Shown one piece after another: positions 466 to 16,970 of a DNA stretch of 64,000 nt. Each line of letters begins with the position of its first letter. Position 1 is the stretch's first letter. This DNA is from Candidatus Heimdallarchaeota archaeon (GTDB lineage: Archaea > Asgardarchaeota > Heimdallarchaeia > Heimdallarchaeales > Heimdallarchaeaceae): assembly GCA_030603365.1 (NCBI GenBank), contig JAUVXV010000001.1, positions 620,001-684,000 on the forward strand. Reading direction: 5' to 3'. The notes under the pieces were generated by a model. It was given only the letters and a program-made list of their open reading frames with translations. It was not told the origin of the DNA and searched no databases. Both the position numbers and the translations under genes were made by a program.

Positions 466-802
466 GGTCAAGGGTTAGGCTAGATTAGGGCTTAATGGTA
501 ATCTAAAAGGGAACTGCAAACTGAACAGGAAGCGAAATCCGATGTTTCAGCCCTCCCAAGGGTAATCTCGGGAACTATGGTTGAACCCCTTTTTAGATGG
601 TTTGAACCCCCATTGGGCTTAGTTAAGACCTCCTAAGCCTGAAATCCCCCAGAACCAGACTCGTGTTTGGTTTAACAGACATCTTCTGTCTGCCAGAATT
701 TCAGTGGCTTGTGGGCTACTGGAATGGAACCCCCAACCAAACCCTCGAAACATCGAGCTAGAATCTCCTTCCTGTTCAGGCAGAAATCCCTCAGGGGTTT
801 TT
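466..802 (+). ncRNA. Unidentified structured RNA of about 335 nt; its 3' end is the source of the dispersed repeat
   Basis: No convincing ORF covers this stretch, but it folds well by eye. A local 5' hairpin pairs 481-487 with 499-505. Two long-range helices close the molecule: 521-532 with 768-779 (12 perfect pairs) and 540-548 with 747-755 (9 perfect pairs), extended by 559-563/741-745 and 578-583/734-739. Inside are hairpins 615-621/634-640, 653-660/665-672 and 676-681/687-692, and a 641-645/698-702 closing stem. It starts about 26 nt after a TATA box and ends in a CCCTCAGGGG plus T-run. The long closing helix recalls archaeal SRP RNA, but no SRP54-binding GGAA/AGCA element is present, and RNase P conserved regions are also absent. 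Expression and boundaries are inferred. Confidence 0.65.
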
Positions 803-810
803 CTTCTTTT
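750..810 (+). repeat. Dispersed 3'-element repeat, copy 1 (within the structured RNA)
   Basis: Core begins gagctagaatctccttcct, followed by gttcaggcagaaatccctc, a GGGG and a T/C-rich tail. Here it is the 3' arm of the RNA's closing helix. The 19-nt start of the core is identical in all seven copies of the window. Confidence 0.9.
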
Positions 811-928
811 ATTTTTGTTTATACAAAAAAAAATGATATTTTTCTTCCTTTGAGAGAATTTGGTAAAATCTAACTTGTTTTTATAAAAAGAAAATGAGTT
901 GGGACAATAAAACTCTTAACTAATTTCT

Positions 929-2530
929 TTATTTTTTGTATCTCGTCTTAACAAGCGTAACTGTCCCAAGAAAAGACAATAGAACAATAAACAGACCAAA
1001 ATAAGATTCTTCAGTTTGTTCAGTTGTTGGTTTACTAGTTGCTTGGCAATCATAGTTGTAGATAAATGGATAAGGATCAGTCATGTTATAATTTCCATCT
1101 ATGACGTATTCTCCTTCTCCTTCAAAATCTGTCCAGAAGTTGCCTTGATCAGAATCATAGTCATACCACCTGTTGTTGTAATTACGATCATAAGCTTGAG
1201 AATAACCGTATTCTGTACCAGCTAAATTATTGCAGATAAAATAATTACCATAGACTTTATTCCAATTAGATTCAAAATCAGTTATACATACTCCATATTC
1301 TCTGTTTTCTTGGAAAGTGTTAGCTATAATCTCATTATTACTCGAATCTTCAAGTTTTATTCCATATCTGTTCTCGTTACAAGTATTGTTAAATATGAAA
1401 AAAGAACTTGAAACATACAAATTAATGCCATTAGTATTGTTATTACAAGTGTTATTGATTATCTGATTGTCTTCTCTATCAGGACGATCATGACTAACGA
1501 CATACATCCCATTATTCAAGTTATCATTACACTCATTATCTTGTATTAAACATGAACCGCTACGGCTAAAACGCATCCCATTCTCAATGTTTCTATTACA
1601 ATTATTCTGTTCAATAATTGAGAAATAATTTTCACTTAACCACATTCCATATGTACCATCAGAGCAGTTATTATAACCAATGTATAGATTGTTGCTATTA
1701 GCAGTAGATATTCCTACATAATTAAGTCTGAGGTCATTTCTATACATAGAAACATTGTAAAGTCCGTAAAAATAGAAACCATCATCTGCAAACTGAACAG
1801 TGTTCTCAATGAGAATAGAGTCTGCAATTGCATACAAATTAATTCCATATCGAGAGTTTGTACATAAATTATCATAGAGAGTAAGCTGTTTAGAATATGC
1901 AAAATTCATCCCATCAATGAGATTATACAAACACATGTTTTCAGTAATAGTAAATCGATCTAGAGCCCCCCCCATTATCCCACATTTATTATCATAACAA
2001 AGATTGTTGCTGATTACACTGTCATTGGAAATAAACACACCTATTCCACCCTGATTATAAGCGCATGTATTTTCACTAATGTTTAAATTTGAACAGAAAT
2101 AAGTATAGATCCCCCACACCTCAGTATTAATACAATGATTATTATTAATATCTAATATTTGACCGGTATTATTAACAAGATAGATTCCAACGAATGTAGC
2201 AGTTATAACACAGTTCTGAATTGCAAAATTCTTAGTTGTATCTCTTATTATTATTCCTGCATCTGAGGTAGTATCAATTTCAAGATTTTGTATTAAGAAT
2301 GGATTTGTTTCAGAACCATTCCCTGGAAAGCCATAAGATAGAAAATCATCATCTGAATCTATTAGTATTGGAGAGCTTGCGATTTTAATTGAATAATCTC
2401 GTGTTTCTGATAATTCAAATAAGAGAAGATTCTTTCCCTCGAATAAATTTGTCTCATTACTCTTATGCTCTCCAGAAGTGCTGACTATCATAAATATGAT
2501 GAAAAACAAATAGATGGTTCTAGATCTCAT
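929..2530 (-). CDS. Secreted NosD-like parallel beta-helix protein
   Basis: The 533-residue protein starts with a signal peptide (about residues 1-20). A long parallel beta-helix follows, built of short repeats of the form 'I..N.C..N..GI', typical of the NosD/periplasmic copper-binding and carbohydrate-binding right-handed helix families. About 80 residues near the end (GTEYGYSQAYD, NNRWYDYDSDQGNFW, TDPYPF) are conserved in its paralogs. A C-terminal membrane helix and basic tail (FGLFIVLLSFLG ... KTRYKK) anchor it outside the cell. It is the second gene of a reverse two-gene operon behind the gene ending at 2550. Its first ~90 and last ~200 residues closely match the 12368-14002 protein while the middle differs. 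The ligand is unknown; adhesion or glycan binding is inferred. Confidence 0.8.
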   Translation of the reverse strand: MRSRTIYLFFIIFMIVSTSGEHKSNETNLFEGKNLLLFELSETRDYSIKIASSPILIDSDDDFLSYGFPGNGSETNPFLIQNLEIDTTSDAGIIIRDTTKNFAIQNCVITATFVGIYLVNNTGQILDINNNHCINTEVWGIYTYFCSNLNISENTCAYNQGGIGVFISNDSVISNNLCYDNKCGIMGGALDRFTITENMCLYNLIDGMNFAYSKQLTLYDNLCTNSRYGINLYAIADSILIENTVQFADDGFYFYGLYNVSMYRNDLRLNYVGISTANSNNLYIGYNNCSDGTYGMWLSENYFSIIEQNNCNRNIENGMRFSRSGSCLIQDNECNDNLNNGMYVVSHDRPDREDNQIINNTCNNNTNGINLYVSSSFFIFNNTCNENRYGIKLEDSSNNEIIANTFQENREYGVCITDFESNWNKVYGNYFICNNLAGTEYGYSQAYDRNYNNRWYDYDSDQGNFWTDFEGEGEYVIDGNYNMTDPYPFIYNYDCQATSKPTTEQTEESYFGLFIVLLSFLGTVTLVKTRYKK

Positions 2531-2549
2531 TTATTTTACCTTCTAATGA

Positions 2550-3347
2550 TTAATTTTTCTTCTTTCTAAATTTCTTGGTAAGACTAGTAATTGGTATAAC
2601 AAGTATAATAAAAATTGACATGTCTGACTGAATTATGGTTGTTGTAGGAGTTGTTGAGGGAGTTGTTGTAGATGTTGGTGTAGGAGTTGGAGTTGATACA
2701 TCATAAATTTCCGTTCTATTGGTAAATTCAAAATGATAAGTGATATTGGTGTTAGTAACATCGATAAACATTCTATATGTAACTACAGGAACAGGGACTG
2801 AGCTACAATTAGTGAAATCAAACCAAAGGGTGTATTCTCCTAAAGGGAGAGTCTTTTTTCCTTCAGGATAATTTAAAATTAACATTTCAAATGGAAAAGA
2901 TTTCTTATGTACTCCCGGAGTAATAATGAGAGATCCCGCAGGCCATTCATAAATAAAAACTAACTCAAGTTCGATACTTTTATTTTCAAGATTAGTTTCT
3001 AGATGAGGGAATGGAATTGGAGAACAACCATATGTACCAGTGATGTCATGTGAGGTGGGATTTTCATATTCAAGATACACATAGGTTCCAAATATTGTAA
3101 AATTGTATGAATCTTCTTCATGAAAACCTACTGAAGGAGGAAAATCGGCATCCATAATTCTCACAATTAGATATTCCTCTTCTGAAAGAACTGGAGGAAT
3201 TGCTGTACAAAATACCAAACCTAAGAGAAGTGGAATAATAATCCCCAATACCAATTTTTGATTCATTTTTATGTTTATTTTGGTTAGTAGATTTTTAGAA
3301 ATTTTCTTACTTAAAACCTCTTCAACCGTTTTCTTCTTGGGAATCAT
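2550..3347 (-). CDS. Secreted membrane-anchored surface protein of the cassette family
   Basis: The 265-residue protein has an N-terminal hydrophobic segment (about residues 30-52), a beta-rich extracellular domain with several N-x-S/T sites, a Thr/Pro/Ser stalk (about residues 218-240) and a C-terminal membrane helix with a basic end. The domain ('YLIVRIMDADFPPS', 'PLGEYTLWFDF', 'VTNTNITYHFE') is a distant relative of the proteins at 3560, 6686 and 7483. No known enzyme motif is visible. It is the first gene of a reverse operon with the downstream NosD-like gene. The MIPKKK N-terminus and the promoter are shared with the 15529-16797 gene, which heads the other reverse operon. Confidence 0.7.
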   Translation of the reverse strand: MIPKKKTVEEVLSKKISKNLLTKINIKMNQKLVLGIIIPLLLGLVFCTAIPPVLSEEEYLIVRIMDADFPPSVGFHEEDSYNFTIFGTYVYLEYENPTSHDITGTYGCSPIPFPHLETNLENKSIELELVFIYEWPAGSLIITPGVHKKSFPFEMLILNYPEGKKTLPLGEYTLWFDFTNCSSVPVPVVTYRMFIDVTNTNITYHFEFTNRTEIYDVSTPTPTPTSTTTPSTTPTTTIIQSDMSIFIILVIPITSLTKKFRKKKN

Positions 3348-3410
3348 TCTACAAACCTAAATTCTGTGTTATAGACAAACTGTTTGTTGTAATTCAACTT
3401 ACCCACATTA

Positions 3411-3447
3411 TTTATATAAAGTACGATAAGAGTATTTCAATACAATT
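3411..3447 (-). promoter_or_regulatory. Promoter with palindromic operator for the reverse operon 3347-929
   Basis: On the minus strand, TTTATATAAA (3411-3420) is a good TATA box about 65 nt upstream of the ATG at 3347. Just upstream lies the inverted repeat gtatt-tc-aatac (3432-3443). The surrounding 19 bp (3429-3447) recur exactly at 16879-16897 in front of the other reverse operon. Confidence 0.6.
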
Positions 3448-3460
3448 CATTAGATAAATT

Positions 3461-3519
3461 TCGAGCTAGAATCTCCTTCCTGTTCAGGCAGAAATCCCTC
3501 AGGGATTTTTTCTTCTTTT
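3461..3519 (+). repeat. Dispersed 3'-element repeat, copy 2
   Basis: It matches copy 1 through the core and differs at the end (AGGGATTTTTT). It lies behind the promoter of a reverse-strand operon, so it does not sit at the 3' end of any + strand gene. A pure terminator role is therefore unlikely for this copy. Confidence 0.9.
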
Positions 3520-3530
3520 CTAAGAAACTA

Positions 3531-3538
3531 ATATAAAT
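3531..3538 (+). promoter_or_regulatory. TATA box of the 3560 surface-protein gene
   Basis: ATATAAAT lies about 26 nt upstream of the ATG at 3560, which predicts a leaderless transcript. It begins about 12 bp after repeat copy 2. Confidence 0.6.
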
Positions 3539-3559
3539 GAAAAATACTTTGTATATTAG

Positions 3560-4228
3560 ATGAAAAGACTGTTCGCAAAAATTCTTTCTTCTTGGTTAGT
3601 TATCTCAGTTTTTGTTGCTTCTGTTCCAGCTTGCTCTCAAGCAGTCGATTCTGGTTATACTATCTATACACGTATAACGAATATTGATCTTCCTCCGAGT
3701 TTAATCTTCTATGGAAGCTATCCTAATCATACTTTCTTTGAGTTTTGGTATACTGCAGAAATAATCAATCCATCAGAGAAAAATCTATACATAATGACGC
3801 CTACAACTTGTCTAACTTTCATCAATGAAAATTTATCTTTCGAGAATGAATCTTACGATGGTTTTGTGTGGGGTGATCCTAAGCTATGTGGTCAATCTAT
3901 TACTAATCACACAATTGAACCTGGGATTTTGGAAGGACAACTGACATTTGAACTCTCTGTGAATGATACATTAAAGACTCTCCCCAATGGGAATTTCACC
4001 GTCTGGATTCAGTTTCATGATTATTTAGAGGAACACGAGTATATTTATTTCAAATCAACTATTGCAGTTAATGACTCGAATATCACAATAACACATGAAG
4101 GTGCAGATGTCATATTTACCTTTCCTTCAGTGTCTGCCCTCCCCAAAGAAATATCTATTTTTCTGACATTTTTAGTTATAGGACTTCCAATAATTTTTCT
4201 TGTAAGAAAACGATCACAAATGGTCTAG
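3560..4228 (+). CDS. Small secreted, C-terminally anchored surface protein (cassette family)
   Basis: The 222-residue protein has a signal peptide (about residues 1-28), an extracellular beta-rich domain of about 160 residues and a C-terminal membrane helix ending in KKRSQMV-like basic residues. It is closely related to the protein at 6686: both have 'YTIYTRIT.I.LPP', 'PNHT.FEF.YT.EIINP', 'TPTTCL', 'LCGQ', 'TLPNGN' and a final 'ADVIFTFPSV' strand. Two cysteines about 45 residues apart may form a disulfide. Only one gene fits between repeat copies 2 and 3. No known domain is recognised; a surface or adhesion role is inferred from secretion and anchoring. Confidence 0.75.
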   Translation: MKRLFAKILSSWLVISVFVASVPACSQAVDSGYTIYTRITNIDLPPSLIFYGSYPNHTFFEFWYTAEIINPSEKNLYIMTPTTCLTFINENLSFENESYDGFVWGDPKLCGQSITNHTIEPGILEGQLTFELSVNDTLKTLPNGNFTVWIQFHDYLEEHEYIYFKSTIAVNDSNITITHEGADVIFTFPSVSALPKEISIFLTFLVIGLPIIFLVRKRSQMV

Positions 4229-4251
4229 TTCTTTAGTCTAATTGAATTGAG

Positions 4252-4313
4252 ACATCGAGCTAGAATCTCCTTCCTGTTTAGGCAGAAATCCTTCAGGGTT
4301 TGTTCTTCCTTTC
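4252..4313 (+). repeat. Dispersed 3'-element repeat, copy 3
   Basis: It lies 24 bp after the stop of the 3560 gene. It shares the extra upstream 'acatc' with copies 1 and 5, and has small changes (TTTAGG, CCTTCAGGG, TTTGTTC). Confidence 0.9.
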
Positions 4314-4378
4314 CTTATGCTTTCAAACAATATTACAGAAAGCTTTTATTTCTTCAAAAATAGTTGACCTTGATATCT

Positions 4379-4975
4379 ATGAGCAAAGATAGTATTTCTC
4401 TAAATATGCTTACCTTAGCTAGTGATCCATTAAGAATATCAATCTGGTTTGAAATCCAAAGAAAAGCTGGAATTACTGCAAAAGAAATAATTCAAAAACT
4501 TAAACTTGAAGGTACTAATATCTACTATCATCTTAATAAACTTGAAAGAAGTAGATTGATTGTATCAGAATCTAAACCCGTTCCAAAATCAAATTTGTTA
4601 GAGAAATATTATAGCATAAATGTGGCTTTTTTTGCACCCGAGGAATGGAAAGCAAGATTTGACATAGGTAAATCAACAAAACATTTGAAGGATATGATTC
4701 TATACAATTTGTATTTCAACATGTTTTTGATTAACAAACAGATTATTGACGTTCAAGAACAAACTAATGAACAGATTCAGAAGAATATTGAACAATATGG
4801 TAAATTTGTCTCTAAATTTATTTTTCTGCAAAAGGATGACTTACCAAAAGTGAGCGCGAAAATAGATGAGTTCTTTGAATTTTTAAACCAAATCAAAAGA
4901 GACGCTGATAGGGATCCAATAACCGATATCAGTGATGCAACAGATACAATTCTTATCAACCTCCTCCCACTCTAA
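4379..4975 (+). CDS. Winged-helix transcriptional regulator (ArsR-like)
   Basis: About 198 residues. Residues 10-75 form an ArsR/HTH_20-like winged helix: 'LASDPLRISIWFEI' first helix, 'ITAKEIIQKLKLEG' and 'NIYYHLNKLERSRLI' recognition helix, then a wing ending 'EKYYSIN'. The remainder is helical and probably mediates dimerisation or ligand sensing. The TTG at 4364 would add five residues; the ATG at 4379 is preferred because the domain begins there. It is the first gene of the cassette between copies 3 and 4, followed by two membrane proteins on the same strand. It is a candidate local regulator of the island. Confidence 0.75.
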   Translation: MSKDSISLNMLTLASDPLRISIWFEIQRKAGITAKEIIQKLKLEGTNIYYHLNKLERSRLIVSESKPVPKSNLLEKYYSINVAFFAPEEWKARFDIGKSTKHLKDMILYNLYFNMFLINKQIIDVQEQTNEQIQKNIEQYGKFVSKFIFLQKDDLPKVSAKIDEFFEFLNQIKRDADRDPITDISDATDTILINLLPL

Positions 4976-5072
4976 TCTCTATTTAAGAAAATACATTCCA
5001 ATATATTTGAGCGCTACAACAAATTTAAATAAGCTTAATTGTTCTTAAATATGTGTTTGTGTGGTTTTAAGG

Positions 5073-5840
5073 ATGAATAATTCCAAGAATGATCACAAGA
5101 AGTATCACCAAAGTCTGATGAGGAAACAAAAGAAGTTATACCCAAATCCAGGTGAAGTTCTTTTTGAATCAGAAACCAAAGCCAGAATAGGTAAGAAACC
5201 TTTCCGAAAAACACTCAAAATTTCTTCCAAAAATAAGATACTTTTACAGGTATGTTCTTCTATTTTATTTTTCACTCTTTTTTATGTTTATGTCACCACT
5301 CACCACTCATCCAATGCATTATTATTTTTGATTGCTTTCACCCTGCTCTATGTTTTTACTTCTACAATTCTATTCGGTTCTTTAATCAAATTTCTATCTG
5401 GTGAGCATTACTCTTTTGGAGTAATTTTTTCTGAATTCTTCTTTGTTATAGGTATTATGATTGGAACATTTAGTGCCTTGTACCTACCCATATTGCTCAT
5501 TCTTTTTGCATCTGAAAAAAGTGGTGAGTGGTTAAGATATGCTCTAACTACAGCTCTCGTAGTTGCACCCCTCTCGTATATATTTAGCGTCAGTTATGAA
5601 TTTCTTAGAAAAGAAGGATACAAAATAAGAGAAATTTTCCTGTATTTTCGAATTAAGAAGCTCAGAAGAGAGGAACTAAAGAAAGAAACACAAAAGGTAG
5701 ATATTTTTTATGAAAAGATAGGCAATATATCAGAGAACTATAAAGAAAGAATCAGTAGAACATTAACAAGAGAAGACATCATTGAGCAAAACAAAGACAC
5801 TCGAACTACTAATTCTATAAAAGAAACAAATATACAATAG
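5073..5840 (+). CDS. Four-helix membrane protein with basic cytosolic tails
   Basis: About 255 residues. A Lys-rich N-terminal tail of about 55 residues is followed by about four membrane helices between residues 60 and 185 and a charged C-terminal tail of about 70 residues with a probable helix (KKETQKVDIFYEKIG). The tail pattern 'K.E.QK.D.FY..' resembles 'RKLQKQTDQIDRFYTDMEKV' in the next gene, so the two are distantly related. The GTG at 5061 is possible, but the ATG at 5073 follows an AAGGA. The stop is 10 bp from the ATG of the next gene, which suggests co-transcription. No function is recognised. Confidence 0.65.
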   Translation: MNNSKNDHKKYHQSLMRKQKKLYPNPGEVLFESETKARIGKKPFRKTLKISSKNKILLQVCSSILFFTLFYVYVTTHHSSNALLFLIAFTLLYVFTSTILFGSLIKFLSGEHYSFGVIFSEFFFVIGIMIGTFSALYLPILLILFASEKSGEWLRYALTTALVVAPLSYIFSVSYEFLRKEGYKIREIFLYFRIKKLRREELKKETQKVDIFYEKIGNISENYKERISRTLTREDIIEQNKDTRTTNSIKETNIQ

Positions 5841-5850
5841 GTTGAAATTA

Positions 5851-6591
5851 ATGCAAGAATCAGTACTTAGCAAGACTAAAAGATTTTTCAGGAAAAATGA
5901 TATCTTCTTCAAAGTCTCTCTTTTTTTATTTCTAGCCGCGGGTACAGCATATGCATTTATTTTTGGAAACGCTCTACTTAAAATTGTAGCATCTCTATCT
6001 CTCGGAACTATGATTGCTTCATTTATCTCAAATTATGTTTTCAATTATCTTTATGGAGACGCATTCAAGCTTACACATGCAATAAATGAGATACTTTACT
6101 TGTTCCTAGGAATTCCAATAATGATCATAGCAATAGGTTACTTGCCGCTCAGTGTTTATATTCTCTTTTTTTCAACTGAAAATAATGAATGGATTGTCCC
6201 AATCTTAATTGGTATAATGGTAACAATGCAAATATCCTCTTTCATTTACATAATAAAAAGAAGGAGTAAAGAGAAAAGGAAAAATATCTTCCAGTTTATC
6301 AAATATATGTTCGACTTTAAAACAAGAGCAGAAGAGCAAAGAAAATTGCAAAAACAAACAGATCAAATAGACCGTTTCTACACAGACATGGAGAAAGTAA
6401 GGGATAGAGTAGATACCACAATGGAACGCAGTACCATAGATTTTGATGAGTTTGATTGGAAGAAAGTAAGAGGGATTAATCGAGAAGATAAAACAGAGGT
6501 AATCTGCTGGAATTGTAAAGAGACTAATAATACTAGTAATCTTGTATGTTCGAGCTGTGGAGTGGCTCTAAAGGAAAAATTATCGAGCTAG
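5851..6591 (+). CDS. Membrane protein with C-terminal zinc ribbon; stop codon lies in the repeat
   Basis: About 246 residues. Four membrane helices (about residues 20-135) precede a charged coiled segment ('RKLQKQTDQIDRFY') and a C-terminal zinc ribbon, CWNC-x10-CSSC. It is a close paralog of the protein at 17703, with long identical runs such as 'LAAGTAYAFIFGNALLKI'. The last residues differ: this copy ends KEKLSS, and its final codons TCG AGC TAG are the first bases of repeat copy 4. The repeat therefore supplies the stop codon. The TTG at 5842 is an alternative start. No function is recognised; it may be a membrane partner of the upstream regulator. Confidence 0.75.
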   Translation: MQESVLSKTKRFFRKNDIFFKVSLFLFLAAGTAYAFIFGNALLKIVASLSLGTMIASFISNYVFNYLYGDAFKLTHAINEILYLFLGIPIMIIAIGYLPLSVYILFFSTENNEWIVPILIGIMVTMQISSFIYIIKRRSKEKRKNIFQFIKYMFDFKTRAEEQRKLQKQTDQIDRFYTDMEKVRDRVDTTMERSTIDFDEFDWKKVRGINREDKTEVICWNCKETNNTSNLVCSSCGVALKEKLSS

Positions 6592-6640
6592 AATCTCCTT
6601 CCTGTTCAGGCAGAAATCCCTCAGGGGTTTTACTTCTTTC
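6582..6640 (+). repeat. Dispersed 3'-element repeat, copy 4 (overlaps a gene end)
   Basis: The tcgagctag at its left edge contains the stop codon of the preceding membrane-protein gene. The rest is identical to copy 1 until the T-run (TTTTACTTC). Confidence 0.9.
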
Positions 6641-6655
6641 TTTGGAATTAATAAA

Positions 6656-6664
6656 CTATTTAAG
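6656..6664 (+). promoter_or_regulatory. TATA box of the 6686 gene
   Basis: CTATTTAAG is centred 26 nt upstream of the ATG at 6686. It supports that start over the GTG at 6674 and predicts a leaderless mRNA. Confidence 0.6.
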
Positions 6665-6685
6665 GTCAGAATAGTGAGTATATTG

Positions 6686-7348
6686 ATGAAGAGATTTCAC
6701 AAGAATTTAATTTCCTTCTGTTTTGTTTCCCCTTTGATACTTACTTACATTGTTTCATTTACTCAGGCTTCAACTTCTGGTTATACAATTTATACACGAA
6801 TAACTGATATAACTCTCCCTCCAGAGATAGTTGAGAAAACTTTCTTCCCTAATCATACAGCGTTTGAATTTGATTATACTGGAGAAATCATAAATCCCAC
6901 GGGGATTGATTTGTTTATCTGGACACCAACTACTTGCTTAGTTCATAATACTGGAAATATAACTTTTGAAAATGAACAAAATGATGGTCACATTCTCGGG
7001 GGAGAAACCCTCTGTGGACAGGCATTCACTCAACATAAGATACCTCCTGGAATTTCTGAAGGAACATTACCCCTTTACATTTCTATAAATGGTACAGTTG
7101 AGACTCTCCCAAATGGAAATTACTCTGTATGGATTGTCATACCTGATTGTGAAGATCAACATGATTATGTTCATTATCCGTCAATTATCTCAGTTTCAAA
7201 TTCTAATATTGTAACTACTCATACTGGAGCAAATATGACTTTCACTTTCCCATCTGTACCCTCATTCCCTCCCCTTCCAGTTTATTCCTTATTTGTTTTC
7301 TTTATTTTGTTGACTATTATACATTACATTAGAAAAAGAAAAATATGA
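6686..7348 (+). CDS. Small secreted, C-terminally anchored surface protein (cassette family)
   Basis: About 220 residues. Signal peptide, about 165-residue extracellular domain, then a hydrophobic C-terminal helix and IRKRKI tail. It is the closest relative of the 3560 protein: 'SGYTIYTRITDITLPPEIV', 'EIINP', 'TPTTCLV', 'LCGQAF', 'TLPNGNYSVWI', 'MTFTFPSVP'. The two conserved cysteines and several Asn glycosylation sequons are kept. It is the sole gene between repeat copies 4 and 5. The ATG at 6686 is preferred because the TATA box lies 26 nt upstream. Function unknown. Confidence 0.75.
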   Translation: MKRFHKNLISFCFVSPLILTYIVSFTQASTSGYTIYTRITDITLPPEIVEKTFFPNHTAFEFDYTGEIINPTGIDLFIWTPTTCLVHNTGNITFENEQNDGHILGGETLCGQAFTQHKIPPGISEGTLPLYISINGTVETLPNGNYSVWIVIPDCEDQHDYVHYPSIISVSNSNIVTTHTGANMTFTFPSVPSFPPLPVYSLFVFFILLTIIHYIRKRKI

Positions 7349-7377
7349 TTTATGATCAAATGCTGTAATTTTCTTCA

Positions 7378-7439
7378 ACATCGAGCTAGAATCTCCTTCC
7401 TGTTCAGGCAGAAATCCTTCAGGGGTTTTTCTTCTTTTC
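7378..7439 (+). repeat. Dispersed 3'-element repeat, copy 5
   Basis: It begins 30 bp after the stop of the 6686 gene and includes the upstream 'acatc' shared with copies 1 and 3. It differs from copy 1 by one base in the CCCTCAGGGG segment (CCTTCAGGGG). Confidence 0.9.
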
Positions 7440-7450
7440 TTTGCCTATGT

Positions 7451-7459
7451 TTTAAATAC
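7451..7459 (+). promoter_or_regulatory. TATA box of the 7483 gene
   Basis: TTTAAATAC is centred 28 nt before the ATG at 7483. This is the same repeat-TATA-ATG spacing as in the cassettes starting at 3519 and 6640. Confidence 0.6.
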
Positions 7460-7482
7460 CTGTTTGTCAAAATTGTATACTG

Positions 7483-8127
7483 ATGATTCAATTTGATAAA
7501 ACTAAAATCTCATCGGTTTTTGTTTTTTTACTTGTATTTTTCTTCTTTGTGAATATTGTACAATCTGATCCAGAAGATATACTTTATAGTCGCATTTCTG
7601 AAATTACTATAAATACTCCTAACTATTCTTCCGAATATAATTATACAGATTTCGATTTTAGTTTTATCATAGAGTTATATAATCCTATGAATGAAGTTAT
7701 ACTTATCTCAACTCCACACTCAATTCTCTTTAATCCTCACGTCAATGTTAGTTTTGCTAATGATTCCTACTCGCTATTTTTCTTGTATGGCTATTATACT
7801 GTACCAACTGATCACTCCATCCCTCCTAATACCACAACTTATTTGAGAGATTATCCTCTTCATTTTACAGATGCAAACCTAACACGATTACCTGAAGGAA
7901 ATTATACCTTATGGTTTGAATTAGATGGACCATCACCTATCACCTATCAACCATTGTCCTCCTTCATAAATGTAAACGACACAACAATAGAAATTTCTCA
8001 TGAAGAATATAATGGTTCATTATTTGTAATTCCTGAATATTCAAGGTTCTTTGTTTATTTTGGAACAACTCATTTATGTTTGATAATATTGATGATTTTT
8101 TTCTTCAAAAAAAGAAGAAATCATTAG
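7483..8127 (+). CDS. Small secreted, C-terminally anchored surface protein (cassette family, divergent)
   Basis: 214 residues. Signal peptide (about 1-27), extracellular domain and C-terminal membrane helix with KKRRNH tail. It is recognisably in the same family as the 3560 and 6686 proteins: 'ILYSRISEITI', 'IELYNPMNEVILISTPHS', 'RLPEGNYTLWFEL', 'NVNDTTIEISHE'. The two cysteines of the closer pair are absent. It is rich in N-x-T/S sequons. It is the sole gene between repeat copies 5 and 6. Function unknown; a surface role is inferred. Confidence 0.7.
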   Translation: MIQFDKTKISSVFVFLLVFFFFVNIVQSDPEDILYSRISEITINTPNYSSEYNYTDFDFSFIIELYNPMNEVILISTPHSILFNPHVNVSFANDSYSLFFLYGYYTVPTDHSIPPNTTTYLRDYPLHFTDANLTRLPEGNYTLWFELDGPSPITYQPLSSFINVNDTTIEISHEEYNGSLFVIPEYSRFFVYFGTTHLCLIILMIFFFKKRRNH

Positions 8128-8138
8128 AATTCAATGAA

Positions 8139-8190
8139 TGAGCTAGAATCTCCTTCCTATTCAAGCAGAAATCTCTCAGGGTTTTTCTTT
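8139..8190 (+). repeat. Dispersed 3'-element repeat, copy 6 (most diverged)
   Basis: The core keeps the invariant 19-nt start, then CTATTCAAGCAG and TCTCTCAGGG. The upstream 'tcg' is changed to 'atg'. It lies 12 bp after the stop of the 7483 gene. Confidence 0.85.
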
Positions 8191-8229
8191 CATTATTTTA
8201 CTTCAAAAATGTAATTTTCTTCTTAAAAT

Positions 8230-8282
8230 GTACAAATAGTTGTACGGATTAAAGCATGCTCTGTACAAAGCATTATATTAAA
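8230..8282 (+). promoter_or_regulatory. Two palindromes and TATA box upstream of the 8330 gene
   Basis: A perfect inverted repeat gtacaa-atag-ttgtac spans 8230-8245. A second, atgct-ctgtacaa-agcat, spans 8256-8273. TTATATTAAA (8273-8282) is a TATA box about 50 nt before the ATG. The palindromes look like regulator sites just upstream of the core promoter. Confidence 0.5.
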
Positions 8283-8329
8283 TCTGTTGGAAGACTTGTG
8301 ATAATTAGTCGATAATTCAAGTGATAAAC

Positions 8330-9136: not shown

Positions 9137-10729
9137 TTATTTATTGTATCTCGTTTTAACAATCACAACAGTCCCAAGGAAAGATAATAGAACAATGAAA
9201 AAACCAAAAGAAGATTCTTCAGGTGGGTCAGTTGTTGGTTCACTAGTTACTTGGCAATCATAATAGTATTCAAATGGATAAGGATCCGTCCTATTGTGGT
9301 TTCCATCAATTTGATACTCTCCTTCTCCTTCATAATCGTTCCAATAATTCCCTTCATCTGTTGCGCTTTCATACCATCTATTGTTATATCCTTCATCATA
9401 AGCTTGAGAAAAGCCATGCTCTGTACCATTTCTGTTATTGCAGATGAAATAATTGTGATGTATCTTGTTCCAAGTTGACCAATCCCAAATCTTTATCCCA
9501 TATTCTATATTTTCTTGTAAGATGTTATATGAAATTGTTGTGAAATCTGTTTCCTCAAGTATAATGCCATTTTGATTATTTTTGCATGTGTTATTGGCTA
9601 TTGTTAGTGAATCAACTTCCCTTAAGCGAATTCCAATATTGCTATCACTACAGGTATTTAAAACAATACTGGGAGTTCCTTTATAGATTGTAATTCCATA
9701 ATCAACATTTCGAATTACAGTATTGTTCAGTACTTGAGTTGCTATGCTTGTGTGAATATCAATTCCTGCATATTCATTATCATAACAGTAGTTATTTTTG
9801 ATTATTGATGCAGAATCAGCGATAATATCTATTCCTGAGGTGCTGGAATTACATGTGTTTTCTTGAATAGTCATTTCTTCAGTGTAAGCCATCCTAATGC
9901 CATAATGACTTTCAGTACAGTAATTTTTCTGAATTGTAGCTAGAGAAGAATATTGACAATAAATTCCCCAATTTGTATTTTCACAAGAATTTTCAGATAT
10001 TGTACCTAAACTAGATGAAAGAAAACTTATCCCCCACCATGAACTGGTAACAGTATTCGAAGTAGCATTGACCGAATTCGAACCTAAAATATGAATACCT
10101 GCATTGTTTGCGGAATAGCAATAATTATCTTCAATTATAGAATTGTGTGTTTGAGATAATGCAATTCCGAAGTCACTGTTATAACATTCATTATTCTTTA
10201 TTATCTCGTGGTTTGAATAGTAACATACAATTCCTACAGCACCACCACTGCACTTGTTGTTAGATATGGTTACATAATTTGTTGAATAGATGTAAATTCC
10301 ATACCACTCATCTCCATGACAAACATTATTGCTAATCTCAATATTTTCAATAGTGAGATCACTTATGCTTATTGCTGATACATTTGCATTCACTGTGCAG
10401 AATTGAATTTTGAAATGCTTTGTGACATTTGTAATAAAAATTCCGAATTCCAGATCTGTTTCTATTGTGTAGTATTCTATAAGATACGGTTCTTCCTCAG
10501 TTCCAATTCCAGGAAAACCATACGAGTCGAAATCTTGGTCATTCAGTATGATAATGGGGTCTAGATAGGACAATTTAATATTATATTGATGTTCATAAAC
10601 AGAATTACTGTATTGATCTATTGATCTTCCCCCTTGATTTGTCAATTCAAACTGTTGCATGTTTAGGATTGTTATAAGCATTAGAAGGATATAAAAGAAC
10701 TTAATAGATCTTAATGTTCTACTCTTCAT
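9137..10729 (-). CDS. Secreted NosD-like parallel beta-helix protein
   Basis: About 530 residues from the ATG at 10729, which follows a GAGGACAG ribosome-binding sequence and starts the signal peptide (MKSRTLRS...). An upstream ATG at 10765 would add 12 residues. A beta-helix of 'N.C....GI' repeats is followed by the conserved end domain (GFSQAYDEGYNNRWYES, TDPYPFEYYYDCQ), a Pro/Thr/Glu stretch and a C-terminal membrane helix. It is the last gene of a five-gene reverse operon. It is a close paralog of the next gene upstream (10772-12364), with near-identical first ~150 and last ~150 residues. Ligand unknown. Confidence 0.8.
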   Translation of the reverse strand: MKSRTLRSIKFFYILLMLITILNMQQFELTNQGGRSIDQYSNSVYEHQYNIKLSYLDPIIILNDQDFDSYGFPGIGTEEEPYLIEYYTIETDLEFGIFITNVTKHFKIQFCTVNANVSAISISDLTIENIEISNNVCHGDEWYGIYIYSTNYVTISNNKCSGGAVGIVCYYSNHEIIKNNECYNSDFGIALSQTHNSIIEDNYCYSANNAGIHILGSNSVNATSNTVTSSWWGISFLSSSLGTISENSCENTNWGIYCQYSSLATIQKNYCTESHYGIRMAYTEEMTIQENTCNSSTSGIDIIADSASIIKNNYCYDNEYAGIDIHTSIATQVLNNTVIRNVDYGITIYKGTPSIVLNTCSDSNIGIRLREVDSLTIANNTCKNNQNGIILEETDFTTISYNILQENIEYGIKIWDWSTWNKIHHNYFICNNRNGTEHGFSQAYDEGYNNRWYESATDEGNYWNDYEGEGEYQIDGNHNRTDPYPFEYYYDCQVTSEPTTDPPEESSFGFFIVLLSFLGTVVIVKTRYNK

Positions 10730-10771
10730 AATATTCTGTCCTCTATATGTAATAATGTCATTCATTGTTTT

Positions 10772-12364
10772 TTATTTTCTATATCTTTTTGTAGTAACAA
10801 CAACAGTCCCAAGAACTGATAATACAATAATGAGAAGACCAAAGTAAGATTCTTCAGTTGGTACGATTGTTGGTTCACTAGTTACTTGGCAATAATAATA
10901 GTATTCAAAGGGATAGGGATCAGTGTTGTTATCTTTTCCGTCAATCTGATACTCTCCAATCCCTTCATAATCGTTCCAATAGTTCCCTTCATCTGTAGAG
11001 CTTTCATACCATCTGTTATTATACCCTTCATCATAAGCTTGAGAAAAACCATGCACAGTACCATTTCTATTGTTGCAGATGAAGTAATTGTGATGAATTT
11101 TATTCCAGGTTGACCAATCACCAATCTTGATTCCATATTCAATATTCTCTTGTAGAATATTGTAGGAGATGGTTGAAAAATCTGTTTCGGACAGAACAAT
11201 TCCTTTTATATTCATTGCACAAGTATTGTTAGAAAGAGTAATTGATTGTACTCCTGTTATAGATATTCCAATTCTATTGAAACTGCAATTGTTCAGAAGG
11301 ACATTAGGAGAGCCTTTATAAATTGTAATGCCCGATAATTTATTCATAAAAAGCGAATTGTTTGTTACCGAAGTAGATATGCCTCTCCAGATATTTATAC
11401 CATACTCAGAATTACTGTAGCAAACATTGTTTCGAACTTGAGATTCGGAATCTTCATCAACTGCAATACCTTGTTGACAAGAATGACACTCATTTTCTGA
11501 AACATTTATCTTTCCAGTGTGCCAAAGTTCAATACCTGCAATACTATTTATGCACAAATTTCTATCTATAACTGCTCTATTTGAATATTCTGCCAATATC
11601 CCCCAAAATGTATTATTACAAAAATTATCAGTTATATAACCAAAACTGGAACTAATGAAGTCTATTCCAAAACCTGACTTATAAACTGTATTTCGAGAGA
11701 TGTTAATATAGCTAGAATACATAATGTGAATTCCAGCATAACTGTTGTGATGGCAGTAATTATCTCCAATATAGGAGTTATCGGTTTCATATAGGGCTAT
11801 ACCAAAATCATTGTAAATGCATTCATTATTCTCGATGAACTCATTATTTGAGTACCAACAAACAATCCCTACTGCACCTCCTCTGCACCAATTATCAGTT
11901 ATTATCACATAATCTGTTGAATAAATATAGATTCCATACCATTCTTCTACTTGACAAACATTATTTCGAATTTCTATATTCTCTACTGTTAGATCACTAA
12001 CGCTGATTGCTGATACACTTGCATAAACTACACAGTATTGGATTTTGAAATGCTTGGTAGTGTTTGTAATAAATATCCCAAATTCCTCATCTGTATCTAT
12101 TGTGTAGTTTTCTATAAGATAAGGCTCTTCTTCTGTTCCTTGACCTGGAAAAGCATAATAAATGAAATCTTGGTCATTGATTATAATTATAGGATCACTC
12201 ACGGTTAGTTTAACCTCATTAAATATTTCCACTGAAGATATCTGTTCAATATTATCATGTTCCATATCCTTAGAAATTTCATCGCTATTTGCATAAAAAA
12301 ACAATAAAATAATCAAACTGACGTAAATAACTCTCTTTTTTCTCTGATTCATACATTTCCTCAT
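10772..12364 (-). CDS. Secreted NosD-like parallel beta-helix protein
   Basis: 530 residues. The N-terminus is basic and then hydrophobic (KKRVIYVSLIILLFFYANS), a signal peptide. The NosD-type beta-helix follows, then the family's end domain (GFSQAYDEGYNNRWYESS, GEYQIDGKDNNTDPYPF) and a membrane anchor with KRYRK tail. An ATG at 12352, four codons in, has a GAGGAAA just upstream and is the more likely start. It is six bases from the following gene in the operon. It pairs with the 9137 protein; their central repeats differ more than the ends. Confidence 0.8.
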   Translation of the reverse strand: MRKCMNQRKKRVIYVSLIILLFFYANSDEISKDMEHDNIEQISSVEIFNEVKLTVSDPIIIINDQDFIYYAFPGQGTEEEPYLIENYTIDTDEEFGIFITNTTKHFKIQYCVVYASVSAISVSDLTVENIEIRNNVCQVEEWYGIYIYSTDYVIITDNWCRGGAVGIVCWYSNNEFIENNECIYNDFGIALYETDNSYIGDNYCHHNSYAGIHIMYSSYINISRNTVYKSGFGIDFISSSFGYITDNFCNNTFWGILAEYSNRAVIDRNLCINSIAGIELWHTGKINVSENECHSCQQGIAVDEDSESQVRNNVCYSNSEYGINIWRGISTSVTNNSLFMNKLSGITIYKGSPNVLLNNCSFNRIGISITGVQSITLSNNTCAMNIKGIVLSETDFSTISYNILQENIEYGIKIGDWSTWNKIHHNYFICNNRNGTVHGFSQAYDEGYNNRWYESSTDEGNYWNDYEGIGEYQIDGKDNNTDPYPFEYYYYCQVTSEPTIVPTEESYFGLLIIVLSVLGTVVVTTKRYRK

Positions 12365-12367
12365 TTT

Positions 12368-14002
12368 TCATCTTATCCGTTTATTATGATTCTTGTATCT
12401 CCTTTCCTTTTTATATCGCATTTTAGCAATCGACATAGTCCCAATAAATGATAATACAACAGTAAGAAGACTTAAAGAAGATTCTTCTGTTGGTTCAGTT
12501 ATTGTTTCTGTTGTTATACACTCAAAATAGTATTCAAATGGATAAGGATCAGTCATATTGTATTTACCATCTATTGAGTATTCTCCTTCTCCTTCATAAT
12601 CTGTCCAAAAATTGCCTGTGTTTGAATCAAAATCATACCACCTATTGTTATAACTACGATCATAAGCTTGGGAAAAACCGTATTCTGTACCAGCTAAGTT
12701 ATTGCAGATAAAGTAATTGCCATAGATTCTATTCCATGTAGATTCAAAATCTGTTATACATACTCCATATTCTCTGTTTTCTTGGAAAGCATTAGAAATT
12801 ATCTCATTATTACTCGAATCTTCAAGTTTCATTCCATATCTGTTCTCGTTACAAGTATTGTTAAATATGAAAAAAGAACTTGAGACGTACAAATTAATAC
12901 CATAAGTATTGTTATTACAAGTGTTACTGATTATCTGATTGTCTTCTCTATCAGAACGTTCATGTCTAAAGACATACATCCCATTGTCCAAATTGTCATT
13001 ACAGGTGTTATTCACTACTAAGCAAGAACCACTTGAACGCAAGTAAATTCCATCCCGTGTATTATTGTTGCAGATATTATGATCTATTAATGAAGACTGA
13101 CTTTGAGTTGTCCAAATTCCGTATGTACCAGCAGAACAGTTGTTATAAACAATGTCAACACCATAAGTACCATGGTTATCTATTCCAATATAAGTGAAGA
13201 CAATATTATTTCTAATCACTGTAATGTTTTTAAGATAGGAAAGAGTAAATCCATTGTCCGAATATTCAATGGTGTTTTCTGAGAGAATGGCATCTTCTAC
13301 TGAATATAAATCGATCCCAATTCTAGTGTTTGAGCAAAAATTATTTTGTAGGTTTATATTTTTTGAATATGCTTGATTTATACCAATTTTGAGGTTGTAT
13401 ACACAATAATTGTTCGTTATTATTGTGCCTTCTGCACCCCCTCCTATTATACCATATTCATTATCATAGCAGAGATTATTTACAATTTTACTATAGTTAG
13501 AATAAAAAACTCCTATACCTGCTTGAGTATAAGCACAAGTATTATTGGAAATAGTCAGGTTTGGGCAAAGAAAAACATATATCCCATAAATGGCGCTATT
13601 TGTGAAATGGTTGTTGTTGATTGAAGAATAACTTCCTGTGTTATTAAATAGATGAATACTTGTGGCACTTGCACTTACACTGCAATTGAAAATGACAAAA
13701 TTCAAGGTTGTATCTCTAATAAATATGCCAAAATCTGAATCTGTTTCAATCTCTAGATTTTGTATTAAGAATGGATTAGTCTCAGAACCATTCCCTGGAA
13801 GACCATAAGATAGAAAATCATCATCTGAACCTATTAGTATAGGAGAGCTTGCGATTTTAAATGAATAATCTCGTATTTCTGATAAATCTAATAAGAAATG
13901 ATCCTTTCCCTCGAATGAATTTATCTCTTTACTCTTGTAATTACCAGAAGTGCTGACTAGCATAAATACGAAAAGAAACAAACAGATGGTTCTAGATTTC
14001 AA
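12368..14002 (-). CDS. Secreted NosD-like parallel beta-helix protein
   Basis: 544 residues. Signal peptide (MKSRTICLFLFVFMLVSTSG), beta-helix repeats, the conserved end domain (GFSQAYDRSYNNRWYDFDS, TDPYPFEYYFEC), a membrane helix and an unusually long basic tail. The first 90 residues and the segment from about residue 330 to the end are close copies of the 929-2530 protein, which lies in another cassette more than 10 kb away. The middle part is different. It is three bases from the next gene in the operon. Confidence 0.8.
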   Translation of the reverse strand: MKSRTICLFLFVFMLVSTSGNYKSKEINSFEGKDHFLLDLSEIRDYSFKIASSPILIGSDDDFLSYGLPGNGSETNPFLIQNLEIETDSDFGIFIRDTTLNFVIFNCSVSASATSIHLFNNTGSYSSINNNHFTNSAIYGIYVFLCPNLTISNNTCAYTQAGIGVFYSNYSKIVNNLCYDNEYGIIGGGAEGTIITNNYCVYNLKIGINQAYSKNINLQNNFCSNTRIGIDLYSVEDAILSENTIEYSDNGFTLSYLKNITVIRNNIVFTYIGIDNHGTYGVDIVYNNCSAGTYGIWTTQSQSSLIDHNICNNNTRDGIYLRSSGSCLVVNNTCNDNLDNGMYVFRHERSDREDNQIISNTCNNNTYGINLYVSSSFFIFNNTCNENRYGMKLEDSSNNEIISNAFQENREYGVCITDFESTWNRIYGNYFICNNLAGTEYGFSQAYDRSYNNRWYDFDSNTGNFWTDYEGEGEYSIDGKYNMTDPYPFEYYFECITTETITEPTEESSLSLLTVVLSFIGTMSIAKMRYKKERRYKNHNKRIR

Positions 14003-14005
14003 TTA

Positions 14006-15532
14006 TTATACCTTCCAATGATGCATTTTTCTTCTTCTTACCAAAAAAGTAACCCCTAAGAAATAAAAACTTATGTAGACTAATTTTGGAGTTAGTGCTT
14101 CTTCTGTCTCTACAGGTGTCTGCGTTGGAGTTGTTGTAATTTCATATCTAAATGGCTCGGCATTAGGATAACGATCTACGAAATCTTCTCCACCATCTAT
14201 TGTATAATTTCCTTCTCCGATATAGTCTGACCAGTAATTTCCTAGTTGATTCTCTTCATCATACCAATGATTATTGAATCCTTCATCGAAACATTGAGAG
14301 AATCCAGAAAGCATTTCAGCATTATTGTTGATAAAATCGTTATAGAAGATATCATTTTGCCAACTCCAAGTTGAAAAAATACCAAAATCACTATTATTTT
14401 CCAGAATATTGTAGTGTATCGAATTATAGCTTGCATATTCTAAATGCATACCATATTCAAGGTTATTAGAAAAAGTATTATTTGCAATCATTCTTCGGTT
14501 TGCATCTTTTATCTTGATTCCAATTCCATTGAATTCACAGAAATTATTAACGAAATCTGATGGTTCGTTTACATCGAATTCATTATCAGATATTTTAATC
14601 CCATATAGGCCATTATGATTACATGTGTTATTTTTTACAAGAAGATACTCCCCTGCAACAAAACTCATTCCAACCTCTAAATTATATTCACAGATGTTAT
14701 TAGTAAAATTACTAGATATCAAACCTCTACTTGAAATCCCAGTTAAAATGCTATTTGAGAAGTTATTGCCAGATATTACTGAATTAGGGCAAGATTCAAT
14801 ACTTAATCCTACATTACAATTGATGCATGTATTGTTTAGAATCTTATTAGAGCGGGAATATTTAATTTTAATCCCATAAAATGTGTCTTGACATAAGTTA
14901 TCTTCTAAGATGATGTTTCTACTGTCACCACATACGATTCCTGCACAAGTATTATCTGTTATATTAGAGTATCCCGCACAATCAATGTCAATCTGCCCCC
15001 AAAAACAGCTGTTATTGACCACAGAAGAATACGGTACATCCCTAAGAATAATCCTACAGGATTTGTACTGAAGTATATTATCGTGTAGAACTACACCTGC
15101 TGACTCTCTGATCCATATTGCTGTATAATTGCAGTGAGTAATGGTATTATTAAGGATAGATATGGTATTGGTACCAACATTTGTCACCATTATTCCTCGT
15201 GTTCCTGTTAAGTGACAATTTCTTATAACAAAATGTTTTGTAGTATCCTGAATTAAAATGGCGTCTTGTACATAACTTATGATGTTTAGATTTTCAATGA
15301 TGTAAGGGCGAGTGTTATTTCCATACCCCGAAAAACCATAATCAGTAAAATTATCGTCTGAAATTATCCGAATCGATTCATGGTTAGAATATGCTTTAAT
15401 TTCAGGAAAACTAGTTTGAAAAACATTATAAGACTCCCCTAAAATTTGAAATTTGGATTCAGATGTTGAAATCGTGAAAATAAGCATTGATAGAATTATC
15501 ATTAAAAATAGGTTGTTTTTTTTGTTCATCAT
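14006..15532 (-). CDS. Secreted NosD-like parallel beta-helix protein (divergent)
   Basis: 508 residues. Signal peptide (about 1-26), beta-helix of 'N.C..N..GI' repeats, an end domain (GFSQCFDEGFNNHWYDEE, GNYWSDYIGEGNYTIDGG), a Thr/Pro linker and a membrane helix with RRRKMHHWKV tail. It is less like the other four NosD-like proteins than they are to each other, so it may be an older member. Its start ATG overlaps the stop of the preceding gene (ATGA, 4 bp), which shows translational coupling in the reverse operon. Confidence 0.8.
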   Translation of the reverse strand: MMNKKNNLFLMIILSMLIFTISTSESKFQILGESYNVFQTSFPEIKAYSNHESIRIISDDNFTDYGFSGYGNNTRPYIIENLNIISYVQDAILIQDTTKHFVIRNCHLTGTRGIMVTNVGTNTISILNNTITHCNYTAIWIRESAGVVLHDNILQYKSCRIILRDVPYSSVVNNSCFWGQIDIDCAGYSNITDNTCAGIVCGDSRNIILEDNLCQDTFYGIKIKYSRSNKILNNTCINCNVGLSIESCPNSVISGNNFSNSILTGISSRGLISSNFTNNICEYNLEVGMSFVAGEYLLVKNNTCNHNGLYGIKISDNEFDVNEPSDFVNNFCEFNGIGIKIKDANRRMIANNTFSNNLEYGMHLEYASYNSIHYNILENNSDFGIFSTWSWQNDIFYNDFINNNAEMLSGFSQCFDEGFNNHWYDEENQLGNYWSDYIGEGNYTIDGGEDFVDRYPNAEPFRYEITTTPTQTPVETEEALTPKLVYISFYFLGVTFLVRRRKMHHWKV

Positions 15533-16797
15533 TGAGCCACTTCCAGGCTTGAACCTTTTCTCTTTCTTCTCCTTATAACTTGAAAAAGAAATGCTGATTC
15601 AATTAGTAGTAAGCACCATAAATCAAAAGATAAAATGGATGTATGAGGTGTTGATGTCATATGTAGTATATTTTCAAAGGTCTTCAGTTTTAGTTTATAG
15701 GTCCTTTCTTCAGTTGTTGAGTTATAATATTCTTCGAAAACATAAAATGATGTTACTGGATCTGAAAGGCTATACAGTCTTAAAATTGTTGAGCCATATG
15801 GATATGTTTCCATATGTACAAGGTTACCATCAGCTGAAAAGATTTTCAGAACACACACCGTAGTTCCATGTTTAGTACTAGTTTTCATAACATAATACTC
15901 CCCATTGAAATGACAATCAAAATAATACGAACTCATTGTTTTAGTTTCCAAAGTAAAATTGTTGACCAACTCATTATCATAAGATATCTGAGAAGCAAAA
16001 GTGGGTCCATATGTGTAATTTGTGTAAATAACACTAATTCCCTTTTCATATAATGAAATTGAGTGAATTTCTTGACTTAGTTTTCTATGCCAAACAACAG
16101 ACCTATTATTGGTATCTATTTTTAATATATCATCTTTGTAAGCAACAAACAAATCTCCTTTGTGGTTTTCAGCAAATTTCCAATCTAGGAAAGGTCTTGA
16201 TCTAGTATAATTCATCGTATTTATAGTTGTGAAACTTACTTCCCAGTCATAATATCCTGTCTCATTGAATGCATAAATCGTCGTATTTGTATAGTTGATA
16301 TCATCTATTGAGAAGAAACCTTCAATTCTTCCAAGGTAGAAATTGCCTTTATTTGAAAGCCCAATCTCATTTAGATAAATAGTATCTAATGTTATTTTTC
16401 TTATTAAACTCATATTTGAATCGAATTTGATATACGTACAATTGTATTGATTAGGAGGCCAAACCATATACGTGAAAATATTCCCATCATCATCCATAAT
16501 CGGATCGTTGCTGAAATCAGCATTGTTTTTGGGAGCATTAAGTATTTCGTTCCCATTTTTGTCAAATTTAAGAAAGTGTATGTACCCTTCGTACATTGCA
16601 TCTAATGTAAGTAGTGTATTTTGATATTTATCAATTCCATGGCTTTCCATACTTCGAACAACCATATACTTGTACATTTCTCCAAACTCAATTTCCCAAA
16701 GATCCTCAGCTGTATTATCTAAAGATTGAATTGGAATAACTGAAATACATAAACAAATCAACAAGAAATAACATATAATTTTCTTCTTGGGTATCAT
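15529..16797 (-). CDS. Secreted, anchored beta-propeller-like protein
   Basis: 422 residues. Signal peptide (MIPKKKIICYFLLICLCIS), then a run of repeated beta-strands with Gly/Asp turns ('FDKNGNEILNAP', 'FDSNMSLIRKITL', 'LSNKGNFYLGRI', 'IFSADGNLVHMETY') that suggests a propeller-type fold. A C-terminal membrane helix and RRRKRKGSS tail follow. It is the first gene of the reverse operon 16797-9137, using the promoter at about 16860. The MIPKKK start matches that of the 2550-3347 protein at the head of the other reverse operon. No enzymatic motif is seen. Confidence 0.65.
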   Translation of the reverse strand: MIPKKKIICYFLLICLCISVIPIQSLDNTAEDLWEIEFGEMYKYMVVRSMESHGIDKYQNTLLTLDAMYEGYIHFLKFDKNGNEILNAPKNNADFSNDPIMDDDGNIFTYMVWPPNQYNCTYIKFDSNMSLIRKITLDTIYLNEIGLSNKGNFYLGRIEGFFSIDDINYTNTTIYAFNETGYYDWEVSFTTINTMNYTRSRPFLDWKFAENHKGDLFVAYKDDILKIDTNNRSVVWHRKLSQEIHSISLYEKGISVIYTNYTYGPTFASQISYDNELVNNFTLETKTMSSYYFDCHFNGEYYVMKTSTKHGTTVCVLKIFSADGNLVHMETYPYGSTILRLYSLSDPVTSFYVFEEYYNSTTEERTYKLKLKTFENILHMTSTPHTSILSFDLWCLLLIESAFLFQVIRRRKRKGSSLEVAQ

Positions 16798-16859
16798 TTT
16801 ACTTACCTTAGTTTTTTGAAATAGAGAAGCTATTTTCTATAATAAGGTATTTCCACAAT

Positions 16860-16897
16860 ATATATTAAAAGCTAGATGAGAGTATTTCAATACAATT
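16860..16897 (-). promoter_or_regulatory. Promoter with palindromic operator for the reverse operon 16797-9137
   Basis: On the minus strand an AT-rich TATA box (about 16860-16868) lies about 65 nt before the ATG at 16797. The inverted repeat gtatt-tc-aatac is at 16882-16893. Nineteen bases around it are identical to 3429-3447. Confidence 0.6.
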
Positions 16898-16912
16898 TGT
16901 TAATCGAATTTT

Positions 16913-16970
16913 AGAGCTAGAATCTCCTTCCTGTTCAGGCAGAAATCCCTCAAGGGTTTTTCTTCTTTTA
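16913..16970 (+). repeat. Dispersed 3'-element repeat, copy 7 (right edge of island)
   Basis: It keeps the invariant 19-nt core start and matches copy 1 except for one base in CCCTCAAGGG. Like copy 2, it sits just behind the promoter of a reverse operon rather than after a + strand gene. Confidence 0.9.

Follow-up and report, generated by a model that had tools for sequence, protein, structure and literature searches.

The accretion of cis-mobilizable elements (CIMEs) and integrative and mobilizable elements (IMEs) in tandem at the 3' end of tRNA or housekeeping genes (PMC5704250) is the described process closest in its working to the locus reported here. Among archaea, ArcVen-P3 is an integrated element with 55-nt repeats at a tRNA gene (PMC4158269), and the integrated elements of Heimdallarchaeum also sit at tRNA genes (PMC8813620). 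The dif (pdif) modules of Acinetobacter are reported to be cassettes with short bounding sites and no recombinase of their own, for which a host recombinase is presumed (PMC6449649, PMC12907356). We analysed a 64,000-nucleotide stretch of DNA (the window) from a Heimdall-group Asgard archaeon with a genome of 3.65 Mb (G000), in which the gene of a structured RNA is followed by six gene-bearing units separated by copies of the RNA's own 3' end. We consider it likely that this cassette array arose by accretion through site-specific integration at the 3' end of the RNA gene, with the enzyme supplied in trans.

As in CIMEs, direct repeats of the end of the target gene flank each element, the target gene itself is intact, and empty sites with matching flanks are found in related genomes (G019, G006, G018, G003, G021 and G022). 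The differences from CIMEs and IMEs lie in the target, which is a new, non-tRNA structured RNA, in the units, which are mostly 0.4-2.7 kb long with one to three genes, and in gene content, since no integrase-bearing member was found in 18 loci and no transfer genes were seen. Because no integrase-bearing relative was found at the RNA site, we file the array under no named island family; the anchor RNA is new, and the anatomy of the array is a known principle of accretion with new features. The archaeal elements at tRNA genes resemble it in the length of the repeat and in its position over the 3' end of an RNA gene, and the host in one case belongs to the same archaeal group (PMC8813620); however, those elements are 9-44 kb long with an integrase and viral genes (PMC4158269, PMC8813620), whereas the array consists of small cassettes with neither. 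The pdif modules are reported to use Xer sites and to occur mainly on plasmids, while here there is one chromosomal locus with longer sites in one orientation and no conserved tyrosine recombinase.

The repeat copies lie in register at 745, 3453, 4247, 6575, 7373, 8130 and 16904 (span 745-16979), all on the plus strand. A first-pass annotation of the window had described seven direct repeats of about 55 nt with a common 19-nt core, bounding units of 0.7 to 8.7 kb. The core, GAGCTAGAATCTCCTTCCT, is exact in all seven copies, all of them within the array, on one strand and downstream of the RNA, and the core-to-core spacings are 2708, 794, 2328, 798, 757 and 8774 nt, which bears out the size range first given. 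When the whole genome was searched with up to two mismatches, no further copy of the core was found, and the control, the same pattern read backwards, gave zero matches; the repeat is thus confined to the array and not scattered over the chromosome. In a matrix scan the six array copies scored 51-67 bits, against a null maximum of 6.2 and a minus-strand maximum of -3.9. Compared position by position, all copies have about 43 nt in common with the RNA 3' end, and the freshest have roughly 47-64 nt; relative to the anchor CCTTCC, nearly every copy covers about -14 to +28, with a longer stretch in the freshest. Recent copies bear out the figure of about 55 nt; the core that lasts is 43 nt long. 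The repeat holds the 3' strand of the closing helix of the RNA, the internal loop that precedes it and a terminator-like end. A short core of the repeat is symmetric (CTTCCTG-TT-CAGGCAG), and a dinucleotide that varies between species, in GAAT-NN-CCTTCC, is the same in the RNA and in most copies. No consistent inverted repeats were found at the cassette ends.

That the first repeat is the 3' end of an intergenic structured RNA was borne out by both conservation and covariation. The RNA is present in 19 of the 57 genomes searched with BLAST, and in the alignment of relatives a TATA-like promoter box of its own and ~270 nt of very conserved body can be recognised. A long closing helix joins the first and last parts of the molecule, CUGAACAGGAAG pairing with CUUCCUGUUCAG. 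Five pairs are changed on both sides once the genus of G021 is included, and in G022, a one-contig genome from a third genus of the family, several positions of the helix are changed with pairing kept. When 228 genomes of the phylum were scanned with a covariance model under strict filters, each of the family's three genera gave matches and the RNA was not detected outside the family. Rfam 15 gave no match at or above the gathering score and no tRNA or tmRNA was found in the window, so the anchor is not a tRNA, as first proposed; a literature search for conserved structured RNAs in Asgard archaea returned nothing relevant. Because it shows compensatory changes, above all in the closing helix, and covariance-model matches in all three genera but in no other of the genomes scanned, the RNA is a real, family-specific and previously undescribed structured RNA.

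The locus was compared in 20 congeners and two outgroup genera (G021 and G022). On the gene maps the left side is fixed up to the RNA, the right side is fixed from c7 (minus strand) through S30e and Elp3, and the order of the flanking genes is conserved. Only the interval between the RNA 3' end and c7/S30e varies, holding nothing to six units, so that the locus is far from constant among relatives. Neither of the findings that the first-pass annotation named as refuting it, a repeat scattered over the chromosome or a locus unchanged in all relatives, was thus observed. This interval is essentially empty in G006, G018 and G003 and holds one unit in G014, two in G011 and at least one each in G004 and G017; repeat copies number at least three in G005, with five further copies in G002 and six further copies in G000. 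In both outgroups the RNA lies directly before S30e, so that an empty locus would most simply be the ancestral state. The gene immediately next to the RNA in G019, a sister species, corresponds to the one located behind the last repeat in the window, and an alignment of the right flanks spans 677 nt with 76.7% identity. The 16.1 kb from the first to the last repeat is therefore missing from G019 as a block, a difference that could stem either from insertion in one lineage or from deletion in the other.

Unit order differs between two sister species, G002 and G005, whose left flanks are 88.9% identical over 8.3 kb. Two units are common to them, one with a SecY paralogue (78%) and one with a TPR protein (85%). 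The TPR unit comes first in G002, with the SecY unit near the end, while in G005 the SecY unit lies directly before the TPR unit. The shared stretches start or stop at repeat copies, and homologous recombination between repeats may have re-sorted the units. When 15 repeat copies were compared with the RNA 3' ends of 15 genomes, the nearest or tied-nearest end was that of the copy's own genome in 13 cases. The empty site in a sister species, the reordered units in two others and these own-species repeats all uphold the proposal of repeated integration at the RNA 3' end. The repeat after the c18 gene scores 49.9, 22.8 and 13.7 bits in G011, G020 and G016, respectively (null maxima 2.1-4.4), a gradation which indicates that copies decay with age and that selection does not maintain them. 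Agreeing with the RNA of the same species and decaying in this way, the repeats look like attachment-site scars. The copies might instead be functional elements at the RNA level (terminators, decoys or antisense to the RNA 5' strand) kept by selection, a role to which the terminator-like inverted repeat and the strand that pairs with the RNA 5' end would be suited. However, they occur between divergent genes and also between genes that face the same way, they have decayed freely in other species, and loci without a cassette lack them; we regard such a role as very unlikely.

The cargo is mostly, but not only, secreted or membrane proteins; the earlier description of nearly all of it as such is to be corrected for one unit, unit 3, which includes an HTH_20/ArsR-type regulator. 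Across species the cargo comprises NosD beta-helix, HTH_20 regulator, SecY paralogue, metallo-beta-lactamase-fold, RING-finger and TPR-like proteins. The arrangement of repeat, single c14 gene and repeat recurs in G000 (three times), G004, G011 and G002, at different positions in the arrays. The c14 family is a large host family of secreted, membrane-anchored proteins, with 18 matches in G000, whose model weakly resembles the BsuPI proteinase-inhibitor fold.

This cargo bears on whether the array could have grown by tandem segmental duplication and been reshuffled by ordinary homologous recombination between repeats, with no dedicated recombinase. Several units are indeed paralogous (units 2, 4 and 5 through c14, units 1 and 6 through their NosD genes, which are 75% identical), the upstream stretches that adjoin repeats 2 and 7 are 74% identical, direct repeats of such length can support exchange, and the empty state of G019 could be a deletion. 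Yet the paralogous units of the window are 65-83% identical and their repeats 89-100%, although repeats decay in other genomes. Joint duplication of unit and repeat therefore does not fit, whereas separate insertion of cassettes that had already diverged would. No recent source copy of unit 3 was found in its own genome, only an 83% paralogue to the right of the array and remote relatives. Duplication also sits poorly with cargo that is unrelated between species, and it leaves unexplained how 43-57 nt of the RNA end reached many places, always downstream and on one strand. Taken together, these points make growth by duplication improbable.

In its small, functionally mixed and often single-gene cassettes behind a fixed site the array is like integrons and the clusters of attC sites lacking integron integrases (CALINs), and integrons are enriched in Asgard archaea (PMC9668308), so that a cassette array without an integrase has to be considered. 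Here, though, there is no IntI, genes face both ways, and the site is the 3' end of an RNA, with no GTTRRRY core site in its 43 nt. As single-stranded DNA the repeat has no attC-like fold (z -0.9 to +0.9), in keeping with the first description of it as lacking attC symmetry, and no PF00589 gene lies near the RNA in any genome compared. Since the repeat lacks such a fold and no integrase gene adjoins it, the array is not an integron, and we rejected the CALIN reading as scarcely credible.

Recombinases were scored by the families PF00589 (tyrosine), PF00239 (serine catalytic) and PF07508 ('Recombinase' domain). The statement in the first-pass annotation that no recombinase is present is correct for the units themselves, but just to the right of the array lies a gene for an acidic protein (18538-19371) with PF07508 and no catalytic domain. 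Tyrosine recombinases are patchy: all 14 control genomes have them, but over half of the 23 family genomes do not, and none was found in G002, a genome with five further repeat copies. The own tyrosine recombinase of G000 (C11) was set aside as a candidate, having no core copy beside it and no tRNA near. Two serine recombinases of ~243-249 aa, in contrast, recur genus-wide in recurring gene neighbourhoods; the intact forms in G000 lie at C2:49040-49798 (L135) and C15:328335-329066 (L136) and have orthologues in the genus.

A resident enzyme could thus be one of these two serine recombinases, helped by the acidic protein in a gene-capture system run by the host. The array-side protein is homologous to their C-terminal part (hhalign probability 96), its gene adjoins the array in roughly nine genomes, and the symmetric core and matched dinucleotide of the repeat also speak for it. 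On the other hand, at least five genomes have the acidic gene in another place, the RNA helix, too, imposes the symmetric core, no sequence link between these enzymes and the repeat was found, and they may be general resolvases. Moreover, a shared core of 2 bp is usually enough for serine integrases, and they rebuild no gene end. Tyrosine-integrase sites at tRNA genes have the anatomy of an identity block that extends to a gene's 3' end and restores that end, and by this analogy the sites described here would resemble those more than serine-integrase sites. We therefore favour a helper integrase acting in trans, with a resident serine recombinase as a live, if rather doubtful, alternative. A fuller form of that alternative, to which we give similarly little credence, is a resident Asgard gene-capture platform, in which the RNA 3' end would be a fixed entry site for recombinase-less cassettes, often single genes partly from host families, moved by a host serine recombinase together with the acidic array-side protein, the RNA possibly pairing to the repeat.

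Under accretion by an enzyme supplied in trans, the RNA 3' end would act as the attachment site, and gene cassettes of about 0.4-9 kb would carry or acquire a copy of the last ~43-57 bp of the RNA gene. Insertion by site-specific recombination would rebuild the RNA gene at the left junction and leave a copy at the right, and repeated insertion would give an array with same-strand copies between the cassettes, of which the older would decay. The recombinase would come from something not resident in the array. We infer that integration is enzymatic and conservative and that the crossover lies inside the repeat. Several observations weigh against this account. Copies farther from the RNA are not always the more decayed, the first copy in G002 being decayed, and the likeness of the repeats could also come from gene conversion between copies. 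Neither a PF00589 nor a PF00239 gene was found in any array on the contigs of the genomes compared, the whole-genome search placed the core beside no other gene of G000, and viral contigs, phages and plasmids held no core beyond chance. With no recombinase gene in any array and none beside the core in G000, trans-mobilisation of the cassettes is no more than plausible. The reading of the array given in the first-pass annotation is supported overall.

Table 1. Features of the RNA gene, the cassette array and its right flank (positions in the window).
Feature	Position	Strand	Evidence
TATA-like promoter box GTTTAAATA of RNA gene	435..443	+	GTTTAAATA or close forms ATTTATATA, GATTTAAATA at same place in aligned relatives and G021
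Structured RNA gene, ends approximate; 3' end is presumed attachment site	466..800	+	conservation, covariance model, compensatory pairs
Closing helix, 5' strand (CUGC AAA CUGAACAGGAAG)	514..532	+	pairs with 3' strand at about 766-781, inside repeat
Repeat copy 1, RNA 3' end (43-nt core)	753..795	+	in-register search, whole-genome core search, per-position comparison
Unit 1: NosD/beta-helix protein 929-2530(-), distant c14 relative 2550-3347(-)	796..3460		
Repeat copy 2	3461..3503	+	as copy 1, and matrix scan
Unit 2: single gene 3560-4228, c14 family (secreted, BsuPI-like fold, weak)	3504..4254	+	
Repeat copy 3	4255..4297	+	core search, per-position comparison, matrix scan
Unit 3: HTH_20/ArsR-type regulator 4364-4975, two membrane proteins 5061-5840 and 5842-6591	4298..6582	+	
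Repeat copy 4	6583..6625	+	core search, per-position comparison, matrix scan
Unit 4: single gene 6674-7348, c14 family	6626..7380	+	
Repeat copy 5	7381..7423	+	core search, per-position comparison, matrix scan
Unit 5: single gene 7483-8127, c14 family	7424..8137	+	
Repeat copy 6, most diverged of this array	8138..8180	+	core search, per-position comparison, matrix scan
Unit 6: 8321-9034(+), four NosD-like genes 9137-15532(-), 15529-16797(-)	8181..16911		
Repeat copy 7, last; right flank is that of the empty site in sister G019	16912..16954	+	core search, flank alignment, matrix scan
c32 gene, directly after RNA in sister species G019	17052..17612	+	gene maps, flank alignment
Acidic protein, C-terminal PF07508 recombinase DNA-binding domain, no catalytic domain	18538..19371	+	PF07508 over cut-off
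c7, conserved right-hand boundary gene of genus, 109 aa	20344..20682	-	gene maps
Conserved right flank: S30e (starts 20841) and Elp3 (21056-22648)	20841..22648	+	gene maps

Some further observations concern the repeat, its cargo and the surroundings of the array. A 20-nt core was found exactly, among GTDB genome contigs, in 'Candidatus Heimdallarchaeota'/Asgard records and in one contig binned as 'Proteobacteria' (L099, JAKBBG010000039.1, 3885-3904), a match that is due either to chance or to mis-binning of the contig. In G012 and G019:C55 there are near-matches to the 19-nt core, which were read as chance, since the rest of the repeat is missing there. The SecY paralogue (PF00344, E 2e-51) is array cargo at L037 (G002:C94) and L050 (G005:C209), and c14 occurs in 14 other places in G000 beyond the single genes of units 2, 4 and 5. 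Proteins with an acidic or charged N-terminus and PF07508 but no catalytic domain number about one per genome in the genus, further members being G002:C75:4242-4775 and G012:C206:18443-18937. The c13 membrane/zinc-ribbon gene to the right of the array (17661-18437) is on the opposite strand in G010, G016 and G020 (L045, L046 and L041), so the old end of the locus also rearranges. Only in G003 does a 419-aa gene (L039, 4924-6183 on G003:C63), TnpB/IS605-like by eye, lie between c7 and Elp3.

With this locus a new structured RNA is described from Heimdall-group archaea, a clade whose closeness to eukaryotes has been discussed, and the 3' end of this RNA is a genus-wide hotspot of gene gain with small, integron-like cassettes. 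A clean site of 43-57 bp is now available with which to hunt for the enzyme. If the cassettes do move in trans, they would represent an Asgard route of gene exchange that would escape searches built on tRNA genes or attC sites.

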